Shown here one piece after another: positions 47,766 to 54,381 of a DNA stretch of 64,000 nucleotides (position 1 is its first letter; each line of letters opens with the position of its first letter). The stretch is taken from positions 126,914 to 190,913 of the forward strand of contig NZ_MEFG01000027.1 of the NCBI RefSeq assembly GCF_001724715.1, written 5' to 3'. The stretch comes from Sphingomonas sp. SCN 67-18 (GTDB taxonomy: Bacteria > Pseudomonadota > Alphaproteobacteria > Sphingomonadales > Sphingomonadaceae). The position numbers were made by a program, and so were the translations under genes. The notes under the pieces are model-generated. The model saw only the letters and a program-made list of their open reading frames with translations. It was not told the origin of the DNA and searched no databases.

Positions 47766-48551
47766 TCAGACCGTGCGCTCCACCACCATCTTCTTCAATT
47801 CCGCGATCGCCTTGGCCGGGTTCAACCCCTTGGGGCAGACATTGGAGCAGTTCATGATCGTGTGGCAGCGGTAGAGGCGGAAGGGATCTTCCAGCTCGTC
47901 CAGCCGCTCGCCGGTCATCTCGTCGCGGCTGTCGGCCAGCCAGCGATAGGCCTGGAGCAGGATGGCGGGGCCGAGGAACTTGTCGCTGTTCCACCAGTAG
48001 CTGGGGCAGGAGGTGGAGCAGCAGGCGCACAGGATGCATTCGTACAGCCCGTCAAGCTTGGCGCGGTCTTCCGGCGATTGCAGCCGTTCCTTGCCCGAGG
48101 GCGGCGGCGACACGGTTTGCAGCCAGGGCTGGATCGACGAATATTGCGCGTAGAAATGGGTGAAATCGGGCACCAGATCCTTCACCACCTCCATATGCGG
48201 CAGCGGCGTGATGCGGACTTCCTTGTTGCAGTCCTCGATGGCGTGGGTGCAGGCCAGCGTGTTGCGGCCGTCGATGTTCATCGCGCAGGACCCGCAAATT
48301 CCCTCGCGGCACGAGCGGCGGAAGGTGAGCGACGAATCCTGCTCGCTCTTCATCTTGATCAGCGCATCGAGCACCATCGGCCCGGTATCGTCCAGATCCA
48401 GCTCGAACGAGTCGTAGCGCGGATTCTCGCCGCTGTCGGGATCGTAGCGATAGACCTTGAAAGTGCGGGTGCGGGCGGCGCCTTCCGGGGCTTTGTGGAC
48501 TTCCCCCTTCTTCTTGATCCTGCTGTTCGCCGGCAGCGTAAATTCAGCCAT
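47766..48551 (-). CDS. sdhB: Succinate dehydrogenase iron-sulfur subunit
   Basis: 261 aa. The [2Fe-2S] cysteines are in [12 protein letters not shown] (Cys81, 86, 89) with a fourth further on. The [4Fe-4S] and [3Fe-4S] ligands are in [16 protein letters not shown] and [17 protein letters not shown]. Transfers electrons from SdhA flavin to ubiquinone. Unusually it is separated from sdhCDA by about 4 kb of unrelated genes, and a 101-bp gap upstream may hold its own promoter. Confidence 0.97.
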
Positions 48552-48652: not shown

Positions 48653-49465
48653 TTATCGGCGCGGTTCGCGGCCCGCCAATATCGCCTCGGCAAGCGCATG
48701 ATCGGCAAGGCTGTCGACATCGATGCAGGCCTCCGCCCGGTCCAGCACCACCGCCGCGGCGGCGACCCCCAGCCGCCGCCCGGCCCAGCGCATCGCCCCG
48801 TGCAGCGTCAGGATGCGCAGGCCGACCGCCGCCAGCATCAGCGGGCCGAACGCGCCGATGACCGCCCGGCCGCGCTTGCGCTGCTGCTCTATCGTCCGCC
48901 ACAGCGCCAGCACGCGCTCCGCCCCCGGGCCGCCGAACCAGAACAGGTTTGCGCCGGAATAGGCCCCGCCCCGGAATTTCAGCCAGGTCCGCCGGTTGGC
49001 GGGATAGGCGGCGAGCAGCGTCCGCCGTTCGACCAGCGCCACCGCGACGTCGGCGCGTGACGACGCCGCCCCGCGCGCGAATGCCGCGACGGTCGGCGCG
49101 TCGAGCAACGCATTGTCGGCGGTGGTGACGAGATAGGGATAGGCGCCGCCGGTCGCCGCGATCGCCTCCACCACCGCGCCGCTCACCGAGTCGCCGACGG
49201 TGAGGAAACGCACCTGCGGGTTGGCGCCGCACCAGTCCGCGCCCAGCCCGGCCTGAAGCTGCGCAATGTCCTGCGCGGCGATGACGATTGGCCCAACCTC
49301 AGTACTGGCCGCCAGCGTGGCGACCACCCGATCGATCATCGTCCGGCCGCCCAGCCGGATCAGCGCCTTCACCGGCTCATCGAAATGCGCGGCCAGCGGG
49401 TCCACCCCGGGCCGGCTGCCGGCAAGCAGGATTGCGGTGACGGGGGCAGGCGCGGACGAGTCCAT
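48653..49465 (-). CDS. MobA-like nucleotidyltransferase of the headgroup module
   Basis: 270 aa from MDSSAPAPVTAILLAGSRPG. The N-terminal glycosyltransferase-A fold has the nucleotide loop LLAGSRPG, PVKALIRLGGRTMIDR with the Lys, and the metal Asp in VTTADNALLD. Family proteins join CTP, GTP or other NTPs to a phosphorylated sugar, polyol or cofactor. The C-terminal about 90 residues (GAYSGANLFWFGG onward) are beyond the core fold. Its divergent neighbour is a CDP-alcohol phosphotransferase, so CTP use is plausible: it may make the CDP-alcohol substrate. MobA itself is unlikely. Confidence 0.75.
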   Translation of the reverse strand: MDSSAPAPVTAILLAGSRPGVDPLAAHFDEPVKALIRLGGRTMIDRVVATLAASTEVGPIVIAAQDIAQLQAGLGADWCGANPQVRFLTVGDSVSGAVVEAIAATGGAYPYLVTTADNALLDAPTVAAFARGAASSRADVAVALVERRTLLAAYPANRRTWLKFRGGAYSGANLFWFGGPGAERVLALWRTIEQQRKRGRAVIGAFGPLMLAAVGLRILTLHGAMRWAGRRLGVAAAAVVLDRAEACIDVDSLADHALAEAILAGREPRR

Positions 49466-49587
49466 AGGACAGGCGCTATCCGATCCGTCCGCCGCCGCCA
49501 AGCGGGAGCGGATGGGCGCCTGTGCGCCGTTGCGCCCGCCACCGGCCCGCTTTAGGGACAGGAGTTCAACGATTGTGATCGGTCAAC

Positions 49588-50712
49588 TTGAACACAGCCA
49601 AACCCTCCGTCCGCCGCGTCGGCCGGAACGAGACGACGCTCTGGGGCATGAGCTCCGCCGAACGCGTCCGCCGCATCGCCACCGCCGCCGCGCTCCCCAT
49701 AGACGATGAAGGCCGGCAATCGCCGCAATTGCTGGTCGATCTGGGCTATGCCTTCGATCCGCTCTGGCTGGCCCATCTGGCGGGACGGCCTGGCGCGGTG
49801 CTGACGCTGGGCGGCCGGGCGGTGATCGCCCATGTCGGCGATCCGGCCGTCGCCGACATGGTGGCCGCCGCCATGGCGCATGGCGATGCGCTGCCGGACG
49901 GCACGGCGCTGGAGGTCATCGCCTTCGAGACCGGCGGGCGCATCTACAACACGGCGCTGCGCAAGCTGGAGCAGCCCTTCGTTGAGCGGCTGGAGCCGGA
50001 CAGCGTGCGCGCCATAGAACGGAAAAGCTATCAGGGCGCCTATAAGGGCGTCACCGACATATTGACCAAATATCTCTGGCCGCAATGGGCCTTTCTGCTC
50101 ACCCGCGTCGCGGCGCGGATCGGCATCAGCCCCAATGGCGTGACCGCGATCGGCGCGGTGCTGTGCGTGATCGCCACCCTGCTGTTCTGGCGGGGGGATT
50201 ATTGGCCCGGGCTGGCGGCGGGGCTGGCCTTCATGGTGCTCGACACGGTGGACGGCAAGCTGGCGCGCTGCACCATCACATCCTCATGGTGGGGCAATAT
50301 ATTCGACCATGGCATGGACCTGATCCACCCGCCCTTCTGGTGGTTTGCCTGGGCGGTGGGGCTGGGCGCGTGGGGACTGGCCTTCACGCCGACGATATTC
50401 TGGGCCGTGCAGGCGATATTGTTCGCGGGCTATGTGCTGCAAAGGCTGATCGAAGGCGCGTTCATCAAGGCGTTCGGCATGCACATCCATGTCTGGCGGA
50501 AATGCGATTCCGATTTCCGGCTGGTGACGGCGCGGCGCAACCCCAACATGGCGATCCTGTTCTTCGCCATGCTGTTCGCCCGGCCCGATATCGGCCTGCT
50601 GGCGGTGACGGGCTGGACCGTGCTTTCGCTGCTGGTCCACGCGGTGCAGTTCATCCAGGCGGCGGCGGCGCGGCGGCGCGGCGAGACGCTGACATCCTGG
50701 CTGGCCGGTTAG
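49588..50712 (+). CDS. CDP-alcohol phosphatidyltransferase family enzyme with an N-terminal extension
   Basis: 374 aa. The catalytic motif D-x2-DG-x2-AR-x8-G-x3-D-x3-D is complete: Asp219, Asp222-Gly223, Ala226-Arg227, Gly236, Asp240, Asp244. Six or so membrane helices occupy about residues 155-365. The first 150 residues are a soluble domain not found in PssA or PgsA, with LRKLEQPFVERLEP linking to the membrane part. The arrangement recalls DIPP-synthase-type enzymes. It is the only plus-strand gene in the module; it overlaps the glycerophosphotransferase tail to tail by 4 bp. Confidence 0.85.
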   Translation: MNTAKPSVRRVGRNETTLWGMSSAERVRRIATAAALPIDDEGRQSPQLLVDLGYAFDPLWLAHLAGRPGAVLTLGGRAVIAHVGDPAVADMVAAAMAHGDALPDGTALEVIAFETGGRIYNTALRKLEQPFVERLEPDSVRAIERKSYQGAYKGVTDILTKYLWPQWAFLLTRVAARIGISPNGVTAIGAVLCVIATLLFWRGDYWPGLAAGLAFMVLDTVDGKLARCTITSSWWGNIFDHGMDLIHPPFWWFAWAVGLGAWGLAFTPTIFWAVQAILFAGYVLQRLIEGAFIKAFGMHIHVWRKCDSDFRLVTARRNPNMAILFFAMLFARPDIGLLAVTGWTVLSLLVHAVQFIQAAAARRRGETLTSWLAG

Positions 50713-51830
50713 CGCGCCAGCGCGGCGACGATCTCACGCGCGGCGCGGCGCGGCGCATCCGCGCTGCGATCGCCCAGCGCGGTGGCGGCGAAGCGGGCCT
50801 GGAGATCGCGGTAGCCGGCATGGCGCGCGGGCGCGGCCTCTATCGCTGCCCACAGCGCCTCCACATCGGTGACGCAGTCGCCATAGGGCTGGTAGCCGCC
50901 CTCTTCCGCGCTGCGCCAGCTTATGCCGGGCGATTGCAATATCACGCATGGGCGAGGCCGGATCAGATATTCCGCGATCTGGCTGGAGCTGTCGCCGAGA
51001 TATATGTCGGCGGCGGCGGTATAGCTGCCGTCCACCATGGCGAAGCTGCCGCAATCGACATGGACGTGCGGCAGGCCGCCCAGCGATTCGAGCAGCGCCT
51101 GCGCCGTATCATCCCGCTCGAACAGGCGCTGGTGCGGGGCGAGAATGACATTGTAGCGGTCCTGATCCGCCAGCATCGTCGCGATCCGCCGCCCCCAATC
51201 CCACCAGGACGAGAAACGGCGCTGCCAGTGCGGCACGTAGAGGATGGTCGGCCTGTCCACGGGAAACAGATCGGCCCGGGCGCGCGACGGCGCGAAGCTG
51301 GCCTTCATATAGCCCGTGACCGCGATCCGCTCCGCAGCGATGCCGTTGGCGAGATGTTCCGCCATGTGGAGGGCGCTGGGCACCATCAGCCGGTAAGCGC
51401 ATTTCAGCCTGCCGTCCCGATTATAGACGAGGGGCCCCGAGCCATGCGTGGTCATGATGAAGCGCGCACGCGCCGGCAGGATGCGCGGGATCCACAGGCT
51501 GGTCTGCTCCGCGCAGAGCACGACCGGCACCCGCGCCAGGCGCGGCGCGAGGCGCAGCAGCATCGGCAGCTTTGCCGGCAGCGGCGGATTGACGCCGGCC
51601 GGGCCGTTTTCCAGCCGTCTGAACCCCGGCGCGCGGCGCAGGCGGATGGCGCCGTGATCGGCGGTGAGCCATGACCGGATCAGCGCCTCATGGGCCGAGG
51701 TGCTGACCCACAGGTCTATGGCGAGATCGGGATGGTCGCGCGCCAGCCGGTCCACGATCGGCCAGAGATGCGGGATCAGCAGCATCTCGCCCAGCCAGAG
51801 CACCGCCACGTCGGCGCGCCGGGCCTTCAT
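50709..51830 (-). CDS. TagB/TagF-like CDP-glycerol glycerophosphotransferase family protein
   Basis: 373 aa, GT-B fold. The C-terminal half shows ILYVPHWQRRF (compare the YAPTW motif of TagB/TagF), VILAPHQRLFER and ADIYLGDSSSQIAEYL, the nucleotide-binding loop DxxxxDxSS. These enzymes transfer glycerol phosphate or ribitol phosphate in teichoic acid synthesis of Gram-positives; Gram-negative members decorate capsules or lipids. It lacks the long N-terminal GT domain of polymerising forms, which favours a single transfer. 4 bp after the LicC-like gene. Confidence 0.75.
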   Translation of the reverse strand: MKARRADVAVLWLGEMLLIPHLWPIVDRLARDHPDLAIDLWVSTSAHEALIRSWLTADHGAIRLRRAPGFRRLENGPAGVNPPLPAKLPMLLRLAPRLARVPVVLCAEQTSLWIPRILPARARFIMTTHGSGPLVYNRDGRLKCAYRLMVPSALHMAEHLANGIAAERIAVTGYMKASFAPSRARADLFPVDRPTILYVPHWQRRFSSWWDWGRRIATMLADQDRYNVILAPHQRLFERDDTAQALLESLGGLPHVHVDCGSFAMVDGSYTAAADIYLGDSSSQIAEYLIRPRPCVILQSPGISWRSAEEGGYQPYGDCVTDVEALWAAIEAAPARHAGYRDLQARFAATALGDRSADAPRRAAREIVAALAR

Positions 51831-51834
51831 CCGC

Positions 51835-52539
51835 CTAGCCCCGCCATCCGGCGATATCCTCCGGCCGGTCGATCTCCGCCCAGCCGCCGCCCCGGATCAG
51901 CAGCGGGCGGACGGGCTGGCGCTGCGCGATCTCGTGGACGATCTGGTGATGGAAGCTGCGGATGCCGTCTTCCCGGGCGATCACCGCATCCAGCATGGCG
52001 CGATAGGCGCCGCCGTCCTGCCGGGCGACGATGAAGCCGAGCGAACGGTGATGCGCGGCCGCCGGATCGAGGGTCTTGGCGACGGCGGTGACCACCCCGT
52101 CGCTGACCGCGACCAGCATGTCGTCCTGCTCGGCATGGGCGATCGGCTCCACGAACAGGCCGATGCCGGGCGCGTCGTCGGCCAGCCCGGCGCGGATCAG
52201 CGCCGGTGTGTAGACGGTGTCGCCGTTGACGATCACGAAATCGCCGGCCAGCGCGTCGCGCGCGGCCCAGACGCTGCCGATGCTGCTCGACACCGCCCAG
52301 AAGGGGTTGATCCGCAATTCAGCGTCGCCGCCGCGCGCGGCGAGGTGCGCGGCCAGCCGGTCCGCCCGATAGCCGCCGACGACGATCCGCCGCCGCACGC
52401 CGGCCGCCGCCAGCGCATCGAGCTGATGGTCGATGATCGCCTTGCCGCCGACCTCGATCAGGCATTTCGGCCGGTCGATGGTCAGCGGCAGCAGGCGCGA
52501 TCCCTGTCCGGCGCTCAGGATGACGGCCGTGTCGATCAT
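51835..52539 (-). CDS. Sugar/choline-phosphate nucleotidyltransferase-like protein (LicC/RmlA-type)
   Basis: 234 aa. Signature GQGSRLLPLTIDRPKCLIEV (residues 10-29) is the NTP-transferase loop with the catalytic Lys; VNGDTVY holds the metal Asp. It would activate a small phosphate ester (for example glycerol-3-P or phosphocholine) as a CDP or UDP compound. It is directly followed by the glycerophosphotransferase, which needs such a donor. 51 bp after sdhA. Confidence 0.8.
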   Translation of the reverse strand: MIDTAVILSAGQGSRLLPLTIDRPKCLIEVGGKAIIDHQLDALAAAGVRRRIVVGGYRADRLAAHLAARGGDAELRINPFWAVSSSIGSVWAARDALAGDFVIVNGDTVYTPALIRAGLADDAPGIGLFVEPIAHAEQDDMLVAVSDGVVTAVAKTLDPAAAHHRSLGFIVARQDGGAYRAMLDAVIAREDGIRSFHHQIVHEIAQRQPVRPLLIRGGGWAEIDRPEDIAGWRG

Positions 52540-52590: not shown

Positions 52591-54381
52591 TCAATAGACG
52601 CGTTTCTTGGGCTTGATGTAGGCGATCTCGTCGGTCAGCGTATAATCGTGGACCGGGCGATAATCGATCTTCACCGTGCCGTCCGGATTGAACCACGAAA
52701 TGCTGTGCTTCATCCAGTTCTTGTCGTCGCGTTCCGGGAAATCCTCGTGCATGTGCGCGCCGCGGCTCTCGGTGCGGTTCGACGCCGAATACATCGTCAC
52801 CATCGCCTGGCCGATCAGATTGTCCAGCTCCATCGTCTCGACCAGGTCGGTGTTCCAGATGAGGCTGCGATCCTTGACCGCGATATCCGCCATGCGCGCA
52901 TGGACGGCGGCGATCTCCGTCTTGCCTTCGTCCAGCAGCTCGGTGGTGCGGAACACCGCGCAGTGCGTCTGCATGGTCTTCTGCATCGCCCGGCGGATAT
53001 CGGCGGTGGGCGATCCGCCCTTGGCGTAGCGGAAGCGGTCCAGCCGGCCCAGCGCCAGTTCTTCCGATCCCTTGGGCAGCGGCTTGTGCGCCTGGCCGGG
53101 CTTGACGATCTCCGCGATGCGGTGGCCGGTGGCCCGGCCGAACACGACCAGATCGATCAGCGAGTTCGAGCCGAGGCGGTTGGCGCCGTGGACCGACACG
53201 CACGCCGCCTCGCCGACCGCGAACAGGCCGGGGACGACGCTGTCCGGATCGCCGTCGCGCAGGGTGACGACCTCGCCATGATAGTTGGTGGGGATGCCGC
53301 CCATATTATAATGGACGGTCGGCACAACCGGCAGCGGCTGGCGGGTCAGATCGACGCCGGCGAACACCTTGCCGGTTTCGGTGATGCCGGGCAGCCGCTC
53401 GTGCAGCACGGCGGCGTCGATATGGTCGAGGTGAAGGTAGATATGGTCCTTCTCCTTGCCGACGCCCCGGCCTTCGCGGATTTCCATCGCCATCGACCGG
53501 GCGACGACGTCGCGGCTGGCGAGATCCTTGGCGGAGGGGGCGTAGCGTTCCATGAACCGCTCGCCTTCCGAATTGGTGAGATAGCCGCCCTCGCCGCGCG
53601 CGCCCTCGGTGATGAGGACGCCCGCGCCGTAGATGCCGGTCGGGTGGAACTGGACGAACTCCATGTCCTGCAGCGGCAGGCCGGCGCGCAGCACCATGCC
53701 GCCGCCGTCACCCGTGCAGGTGTGGGCCGAGGTGGCGGAGAAATAGGCGCGGCCGTAGCCGCCCGTCGCCAGCACCACGCTGTGCGAGCGGAAGCGGTGG
53801 ATGGTGCCGTCTTCCATGCACAGCGCGATCACGCCCCGGCAGACGCCGTCTTCCATGATCAGGTCGAGCGCGAAATATTCGATGAAGAAATCCGCGTCAT
53901 ATTTCAGGCTCTGCTGGTAGAGCGTGTGCAGCATCGCATGGCCGGTGCGGTCGGCGGCGGCGCAGGTGCGCTGGGCGGGCGGGCCTTCCCCCATATTCTG
54001 CATCATGCCGCCGAAGGGGCGCTGATAGATCTTGCCTTCATTGGTGCGGCTGAACGGCACGCCGGCATGTTCCAGCTCGTAAACGGCGGCCGGCGCTTCG
54101 CGGCAGAGATATTCGATGGCGTCCTGATCGCCCAGCCAGTCGGACCCCTTGACGGTGTCGAACATGTGCCAGGTCCAGTGGTCAGGCCCCATATTGCCGA
54201 GCGACGCGGCGATGCCGCCCTGCGCGGCGACGGTGTGGCTGCGCGTCGGGAACACCTTGGTGATGCAGGCGGTCTTCAGGCCGGTTTCGGCGATGCCCAT
54301 GGTCGCGCGGAGGCCGCTGCCGCCCGCGCCGACAACCACGGCGTCATAGGTATGATCGATAATCTTGTAGGCTTCGGCCAT
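52591..54381 (-). CDS. sdhA: Succinate dehydrogenase flavoprotein subunit
   Basis: 596 aa, full length. FAD motif [11 protein letters not shown], covalent FAD histidine His49 in [11 protein letters not shown], and the catalytic region [19 protein letters not shown]. Oxidises succinate to fumarate. The start abuts the sdhD stop. sdhC and sdhD are upstream but sdhB is not directly downstream. Confidence 0.98.

Follow-up and report, generated by a model that had tools for sequence, protein, structure and literature searches.

The closest described relative of the locus reported here is the ceramide phosphoglycerate (CPG/CPG2) gene set of Caulobacter crescentus, which extends from CC_1168 to CC_1152 and includes CpgA-D (PMC11324152). 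In this set, CC_1160 is the ceramide kinase CpgB (PMC11324152, PMC10331486), CC_1161 is CpgC, CC_1159 is CpgA with a cytidine diphosphate (CDP)-alcohol transferase domain, CC_1158 is a phosphoesterase, CC_1153 is CofC-like and CC_1152 is CpgD (PMC11324152). CpgD converts cytidine triphosphate (CTP) and phosphoglycerate to CDP-glycerate (PMC12275187) and its structures have been reported (PMC13228409). The anionic sphingolipid CPG2 promotes survival without lipopolysaccharide, is required for polymyxin B sensitivity and adds to virulence in insect larvae (PMC12275187, PMC11324152); an analogy to TagD/TagF has been drawn for it, with no such gene named in the sections consulted (PMC12275187). 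Orthologs of the Caulobacter set are scattered across six regions in Sphingomonas wittichii (PMC11324152). Here we examined a 64,000-nucleotide stretch of Sphingomonas sp. SCN 67-18 (contig NZ_MEFG01000027.1, positions 126,914 to 190,913), referred to as the window, in which genes for a MobA-like nucleotidyltransferase, a CDP-alcohol phosphotransferase (CDPOH), a TagB/TagF-like enzyme and a LicC-like cytidylyltransferase lie together. We consider it probable that they take part in a variant CPG-type pathway in which a CpgD-like cytidylyltransferase (LicC type A) and a HIT-domain protein have been swapped for a cassette of a divergent cytidylyltransferase (LicC type B) and a TagB-like partner (TagB-B), the donor, acceptor, product and step order being inferred. 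The four genes are as follows.

48653-49501, minus strand: predicted MobA/IspD-like nucleotidyltransferase, CC_1153-like ('CofC-like'); PF12804 44.3 bits, E 2.7e-11, cut-off 27; homologue of the MobA-like gene that neighbours a GNAT (CerS-like) gene in clusters of Nitrospirota and Alphaproteobacteria
49588-50712, plus strand: predicted CDP-alcohol phosphotransferase (CDPOH) with a nucleotidyltransferase-like N-terminal domain, CpgA/CC_1159-like; PF01066 28.1 bits, cut-off 22; motif LDTVDGKLARCTITSSWWGNIFDHGMD
50709-51830, minus strand: putative TagB/TagF-like GT-B phosphotransferase of type B (TagB-B), partner of LicC-B; 373 residues; model pLDDT 92.7; Z 24.3 to TagF 3l7k_D
51835-52539, minus strand: predicted LicC/COG1213-like cytidylyltransferase of the divergent type B (LicC-B), apparently replacing the CpgD-like type A; above the PF12804 and PF00483 cut-offs; Asn to Ser at the inferred CpgD Asn90 position

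All four open reading frames (ORFs) are present where the initial annotation of the window had placed them, with the start codon of the MobA-like ORF uncertain (TTG is listed), and the MobA-like, CDPOH and LicC-like products exceed their Pfam cut-offs. The catalytic motif of CDPOH is complete, as had been claimed. The residues D..DG..AR(8)G...D...D, which we take to be the CDP-OH_P_transf (PF01066) motif, are all invariant in 20 of 20 aligned sequences. The AlphaFold model of CDPOH (pLDDT 88.2) matches AF2299 (Z 23.1) and IPCT-DIPPS (Z 21.1) of Archaeoglobus over its full length, nucleotidyltransferase-like N-terminal domain included. These archaeal proteins share with CDPOH the N-terminal domain and the CDP-OH-P membrane domain but differ from it in sequence (identity about 12-16%) and in genomic context. 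The NCBIfam models nearest CDPOH are those of PIP/archaetidylinositol phosphate synthases, every one of them far under its cut-off.

A total of 29 genome contigs yielded relatives of CDPOH; 26 are titled Sphingomonadales, Alphaproteobacteria or Pseudomonadota and three Nitrospirota. Their recurrent neighbours encode a HIT-domain protein, LicC, the MobA-like protein, a flippase (Polysacc_synt), a DAGK-type lipid kinase, a family here called F11, a HAD protein and DUF2141. CDPOH is present in 17 of 240 alphaproteobacterial genomes, the window genome counted, and the 17 neighbourhoods hold parts or the whole of one larger cluster. At locus L074 the order is AMP-binding enzyme, SDR, serine palmitoyltransferase (SPT; NF047599 655.5 bits, cut-off 500), F11, lipid kinase, CDPOH, metallophosphoesterase, HIT, LptF-like, LptG-like, fatty acid hydroxylase, GNAT, MobA-like and LicC, which parallels the published CC_1165-CC_1152 in content and order with the hydroxylase extra (PMC11324152). 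CDPOH adjoins CpgB/CpgC-like genes in loci of the class and in Nitrospirota, and the MobA-like gene adjoins a CerS-like gene in loci of the class and in the Nitrospirota loci L027-L029. These three loci, outside the Proteobacteria, hold genes for HIT, hydroxylase, CerS-like GNAT, MobA-like, LicC-A, LptF/G-like, phosphoesterase, CDPOH, lipid kinase and F11 proteins; no SPT gene was seen within their 17 kb.

Judged by domain, gene order and published description, CDPOH is predicted to be CpgA-like and the MobA-like protein CC_1153-like. The LicC-like protein is a predicted relative of CpgD (CTP:phosphoglycerate cytidylyltransferase), and F11, which has no Pfam match, is placed as CpgC-like by gene order. 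The MobA-like, CDPOH and LicC-like genes thereby appear as three members of an already published kind of pathway, and it is very likely that the window genes belong to a CPG-type headgroup set. The cpgD primer strings of PMC12275187 had no match in the subset of loci searched with them.

Other parts of such a set were located elsewhere in the window genome, which is 3.22 Mb in 79 contigs and 98.68% complete. Contig C33 carries an SPT gene (NF047603 797.9 bits, cut-off 670, below which the Caulobacter control falls) and the one F11/CpgC-like relative of the genome (265.6 bits). The 20 kb around them (L144) hold CpgB-, CerR-, LptF2-, LptG2-, hydroxylase- and DUF2141-like genes, the CpgB-like assignment being made by domain and gene order and the CpgC-like one by gene order, rather than by direct comparison with Caulobacter. 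CDPOH is one of three CDP-alcohol phosphotransferase matches in this genome. No CpgD ortholog of type A was found there: the sole full-length LicC match is of type B, and five further matches are weaker, partial ones to other nucleotidyltransferases. Since the only full-length LicC is of type B, the genome would hold a variant and not a plain member of the CPG/CPG2 family. In common with the Caulobacter set it has the CDP-alcohol phosphotransferase, the CofC/MobA-like protein, a COG1213-type cytidylyltransferase, SPT and CpgB-, CpgC- and LptF2/G2-like genes. It differs in that the genes lie in two places, no HIT gene was found, the cytidylyltransferase is of the divergent type B and there is an additional TagF-fold transferase, a kind unmentioned in the main text of PMC11324152, where 'TagF' and 'glycerophosphotransferase' each occur zero times.

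The two LicC types are seen in the gene maps of Sphingomonadales loci and in a LicC tree, where type B forms a clade separate from the type-A rows. A type-B profile matched 77 of 396 Sphingomonadales genomes, with one match in each, and the scores fell into two separate groups: 14 type-B genomes at 344-384 bits, the window genome included, and 63 type-A genomes at 176-219 bits. The profile (A7) contains 13 of the 14 type-B sequences, which raises their scores by construction; LicC-B of the window scores 371 bits with its own row included, and G527, which lies outside the profile, scores 344. In these scans the best candidates of each genome were scored (seven for the type-B LicC profile, five for CDPOH, four for the TagB-like family), so that second copies may be missed. 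No genome of the order had both LicC types among its seven best candidates. Among 385 genomes of the class, type B was found in none other than the window genome, the other 23 matches scoring 166-222 bits. CDPOH was detected in 86 of the 396 genomes of the order at the chosen cut of E 1e-50 (97 at 1e-20) and in 76 of the 77 LicC genomes (14/14 of type B, 62/63 of type A). The hypergeometric probability of 14/14 LicC-B genomes with CDPOH against 86/396 overall is 2.1e-10, a value inflated by relatedness.

The HIT gene tracks LicC type A. Searched genome-wide in 40 of the 63 type-A genomes, it was present in 39, as against 0 of 14 type-B genomes (Fisher 4.6e-12). Among loci with both CDPOH and LicC, it was found in 40/43 of type A and 0/11 of type B. 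This comparison leaves aside the 24 of 79 CDPOH loci without LicC in the fetched stretch, assigns L219, where a contig edge leaves only pieces of LicC-A, to the type-A loci that lack HIT, and keeps L185-L187, which have no CDPOH, apart. The HIT family (A8) carries the motif HVHFH; examples are L008:9110-9538, L074:11286-11720 and L027:162-599. By its position the HIT protein may be CC_1157, which was deemed probably unrelated to the pathway (PMC11324152). On a 79-row CDPOH tree from a quick search, the 15 type-B rows need six changes, of which starred branches force four; a single clade of the 15 rows is rejected (p-AU 3.8e-60). The pattern suggests that HIT and LicC-A were repeatedly replaced by LicC-B and TagB-B. 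The CDPOH tree alone cannot separate gains from losses.

In 14 of 14 mapped loci (13 genomes of the order and L001), LicC-B lies beside a TagB-B gene on the same strand, the two being -3 to 229 bases apart; two of these loci, L185 and L186, have no CDPOH in the fetched stretch. In G527 the pair is seen by match coordinates. In a TagB tree with nine LicC-B-linked rows (L194-L196 and G527 were added later and are not in it), TagB-B of the window falls in one clade (99) with the eight others. The same clade takes in three rows unlinked to CDPOH, two of which are LicC-B pairs and one an orphan. A TagB-like gene also recurs in the module across Sphingomonadales: at least 29 of the 86 genomes with CDPOH have one at a distance of up to 5 kb from it. 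Because of these co-occurrence counts, the grouping of the four genes is not due to chance.

The TagB/TagF-like label of the window protein is drawn from its relatives and its predicted fold. PF04464 does not match its own sequence at E 0.1 or 0.01, nor does any entry of NCBIfam or the PDB, and its sole Pfam match is to Phytase (E 0.047, 13.1 bits, below the cut-off of 21). PF04464 is matched by 17 of 37 aligned family members at E 0.01 (best 7e-08), and the family profile has weak matches to Cps3D (E 0.0019) and TarL (E 0.019). The candidate catalytic histidines H129, H201 and H233 are invariant in 37/37 members. The best VIA-align match of the window TagB-B model, built from 37 sequences, is TagF 3l7k_D (rmsd 3.2 over 318 residues); TarL follows at Z 22.6, and UDP-GlcNAc 2-epimerases at Z 23.0 and below. 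By Foldseek E-value, TagF stands at rank 17, behind other GT-B enzymes. TagB-B would have in common with the teichoic acid polymerases TagF/TarL, known from Gram-positive bacteria, and the Cps3D-type capsule polymerases (PF04464) the GT-B fold and the weak profile matches, but it differs from TagF in its identity of about 14%, its length and its escape from PF04464 detection. Since the window protein has no PF04464 match, we name it TagF-like and do not file it as a Glyphos_transf member.

To compare the pockets of the two LicC types, 9 type-B and 56 type-A rows (the latter including near-copies) were aligned, with CpgD numbering inferred by spacing. Both types retain the catalytic Arg, Lys and Asp, as well as the positions matching Met147 and Lys161, which in CpgD are glycerate contacts; CpgD Asn90 touches both ribose and glycerate (PMC13228409). 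The inferred Asn90 position is Asn in 56/56 type-A rows and Ser in 9/9 type-B rows, and the alignment positions 167, 198, 199 and 200 change along with it. The inferred Trp201 position is Phe or Tyr in type B, which is also without the type-A Lys/Tyr-Asp/Lys set and Glu and gains an Arg (8/9) and a His-His pair. The Ser and both His are invariant in 14/14 aligned type-B rows. Judged by sequence, LicC-B would be of the same fold family as CpgD and, with positions assigned by spacing, would share its signature residues R16, K26, N110-G111-D112, M147 and K161, but differ from it in the Asn90- and Trp201-equivalents and in belonging to a clade separate from type A. These differences suggest that the phospho-alcohol pocket is altered in LicC-B.

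We propose that CpgB would phosphorylate ceramide and that the first phosphodiester headgroup would be installed with the help of the CpgC-like and CDPOH enzymes. LicC-B would use CTP and a small phospho-alcohol, such as phosphoglycerate or a near analogue, to make a CDP-alcohol. TagB-B would then transfer the phospho-alcohol to the headgroup of the lipid, in the way that TagB/TagF use CDP-glycerol, and the LptF2/G2-like system would export the finished lipid. Supply of a CDP-alcohol by LicC-B and its transfer to a phosphosphingolipid by TagB-B is the most likely mechanism, joined to a swap of cassettes that we favour with little more than even confidence.

Several observations weigh against this proposal. 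The likeness to the Caulobacter genes comes from domain, gene order and published description and not from direct sequence comparison, and CerS-like and AMP-binding (acyl-CoA synthetase) genes were not seen in the 20-kb stretch of C33, the rest of the genome not having been searched for them. In Caulobacter, CpgA itself is the proposed user of CDP-glycerate (PMC11324152), which leaves TagB-B without an obvious step, and CC_1159 is dispensable there for the first unit, CPG (PMC11324152). The structural score of TagF exceeds those of the UDP-GlcNAc 2-epimerases by only about one Z unit. In 16 of 43 type-A loci, TagB-like genes of other types accompany CDPOH, LicC-A and HIT, and CDPOH (E 1e-50) is missing from 79 of the 134 genomes of the order that have TagB-like genes, so the family has other roles. 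An orphan TagB-B without LicC-B occurs in G575 (L187, G575:C27), which keeps LicC-A and HIT; it is perhaps a remnant or a partial acquisition. As for the replacement pattern, the LicC tree has a poor outgroup with several long branches meeting, the type-B scan scored only the seven best candidates per genome, 10 of the 14 type-B genomes form one clade, and the link between LicC-B and HIT comes down to four independent pairs on starred branches (sign test p 0.125). Finally, both types occur in one genome, that of L001 (Sphingosinicella sp. LHD-64, G633), where HIT and LicC-A adjoin on C4 and LicC-B is on C3. This weakens a strict mutual exclusion of the two types, which may do different jobs.

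That last genome also bears on a simpler, if doubtful, explanation, namely that LicC-B is a fast-evolving CpgD that still yields CDP-glycerate, while TagB-B takes over a transfer done elsewhere by other enzymes and the product is ordinary CPG2. Retention of the Met147 and Lys161 equivalents in all rows and of CDPOH in every type-B genome fits this explanation, as does the finding of no genome of the order with both LicC types; the Ser at the Asn90 position in all type-B rows, the shifts at 167, 198, 199 and 200 and the retention of both types in the L001 genome speak against it. Rather unlikely, in our judgement, is a reading in which LicC-B and TagB-B form a mobile elongation cassette that makes a teichoic-acid-like oligo- or poly-phosphodiester on the sphingolipid, with a CDP-alcohol other than CDP-2-D-glycerate added to ceramide phosphoglycerate, perhaps repeatedly. 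If that were true, some sphingomonads would carry an anionic surface polymer on ceramide and not on lipid A or peptidoglycan.

The other two alternatives place the genes outside the CPG pathway. LicC-B and TagB-B could serve a surface glycan or capsule and owe their place near sphingolipid genes to chance or to shared export, in keeping with TagF-like capsule polymerases known in Gram-negatives (PMC8262930), with two LicC-B/TagB-B pairs distant from CDPOH and with TagB-like genes in 134 of 396 genomes of the order, 55 with CDPOH and 79 without (E 1e-50; odds ratio 5.2, relatedness not corrected). Against this stand the presence of CDPOH in all LicC-B genomes, allowing that related genomes are not independent, and the finding of neither LicC-A nor HIT alongside LicC-B in the order sample, and we regard it as improbable. 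Most improbable is that the four genes alone run an entirely undescribed pathway for a lipid or polymer, based for instance on inositol or glycerol phosphate. Support for this would come from the PIP/archaetidylinositol phosphate synthase models being nearest to CDPOH and from IPCT, which scores 54 bits with the LicC-B profile and 38 with a mixed LicC profile. However, other bacteria carry these families inside larger clusters of the CPG type that also include SPT, CerS- and CpgB/CpgC-like genes, and SPT, CpgB- and CpgC-like genes are present in the window genome itself. An inositol (DIPP/PIP) pathway was set aside since the PIP-type models are far under their cut-offs; the gene maps revealed no inositol gene, no search aimed at one having been made.

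The initial annotation had read the four genes as an undescribed pathway. This was rejected in view of the occurrence of the same families in larger CPG-type clusters and of the earlier naming of the Caulobacter genes (PMC11324152) and of CDP-glycerate as the product of CpgD (PMC12275187). Its idea of a lipid-headgroup module holds insofar as a conserved phosphodiester set is found in a genome with sphingolipid genes, although the pathway had already been described. That all four roles of the pathway are present was too strong a statement, as ceramide-kinase-like, CpgC-like and Lpt-like genes are on another contig, and the relative of CpgD is the LicC-like gene and not the MobA-like one. The TagB/TagF-like label is upheld by relatives and fold and finds no match in the protein's own sequence. 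The new part is the LicC-B/TagB-B pair, the CPG-type pathway itself being known. In the titles and abstract openings of the open-access literature, no report was found that assigns a TagB/TagF-like enzyme to the making of a sphingolipid headgroup. The transferase for the second unit of CPG2 lacks biochemical characterisation in Caulobacter, and the exchange of a CpgD-like protein and HIT for a cytidylyltransferase and a TagF-fold enzyme hints at which steps go together. It also suggests a role for the HIT protein, which, should it be CC_1157, has been set aside in the literature. If the proposal is true, chemistry of the teichoic-acid type would be tied to sphingolipids in Gram-negatives.

In the window the four genes lie between two flanking genes outside the pathway.

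47766-48551, minus strand: sdhB; NF004616 377.6 bits; near CDPOH in many relatives
52591-54381, minus strand: sdhA, on the other side; TIGR01816 966 bits

The set thereby splits sdhCDA from sdhB. CDPOH is encoded on the other strand and meets the TagB-like gene tail-to-tail, with a 4-base overlap of the ORFs, so that the 3.9 kb do not form the single unit of transcription that had been suggested, and a single operon of the four genes is ruled out in the window. Unlike in the window, the TagB-like gene and CDPOH share a strand in 28 of 29 TagB-linked loci of Sphingomonadales. The gaps of 51 bases between sdhA and LicC and of 4 bases between LicC and the TagB-like gene make co-transcription of these two genes with sdhCDA possible. 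The site beside sdhB, often with zapE and mdh, recurrently hosts the module in Sphingomonadales (L147, L148, L160, L166, L182 and the window). Of the stretches in which sdhA was looked for, the window alone has it adjoining the module; the genus of the window was represented by one genome (1/1).

Two further arrangements of CDPOH were observed. Small-genome relatives, mostly of genus group g213, have a compact CDPOH-MobA-HAD triad with neither LicC nor HIT in the stretch (L184, L189, L202-L213, L215-L218); LicC, and in most of them the HIT gene, is located elsewhere in the genome. The HAD phosphatase of the triad may serve the headgroup pathway. In the alphaproteobacterial loci L064, L065, L067 and L073, a second, divergent CDP-alcohol phosphotransferase gene lies in the same cluster beside an LptF/G-like gene.

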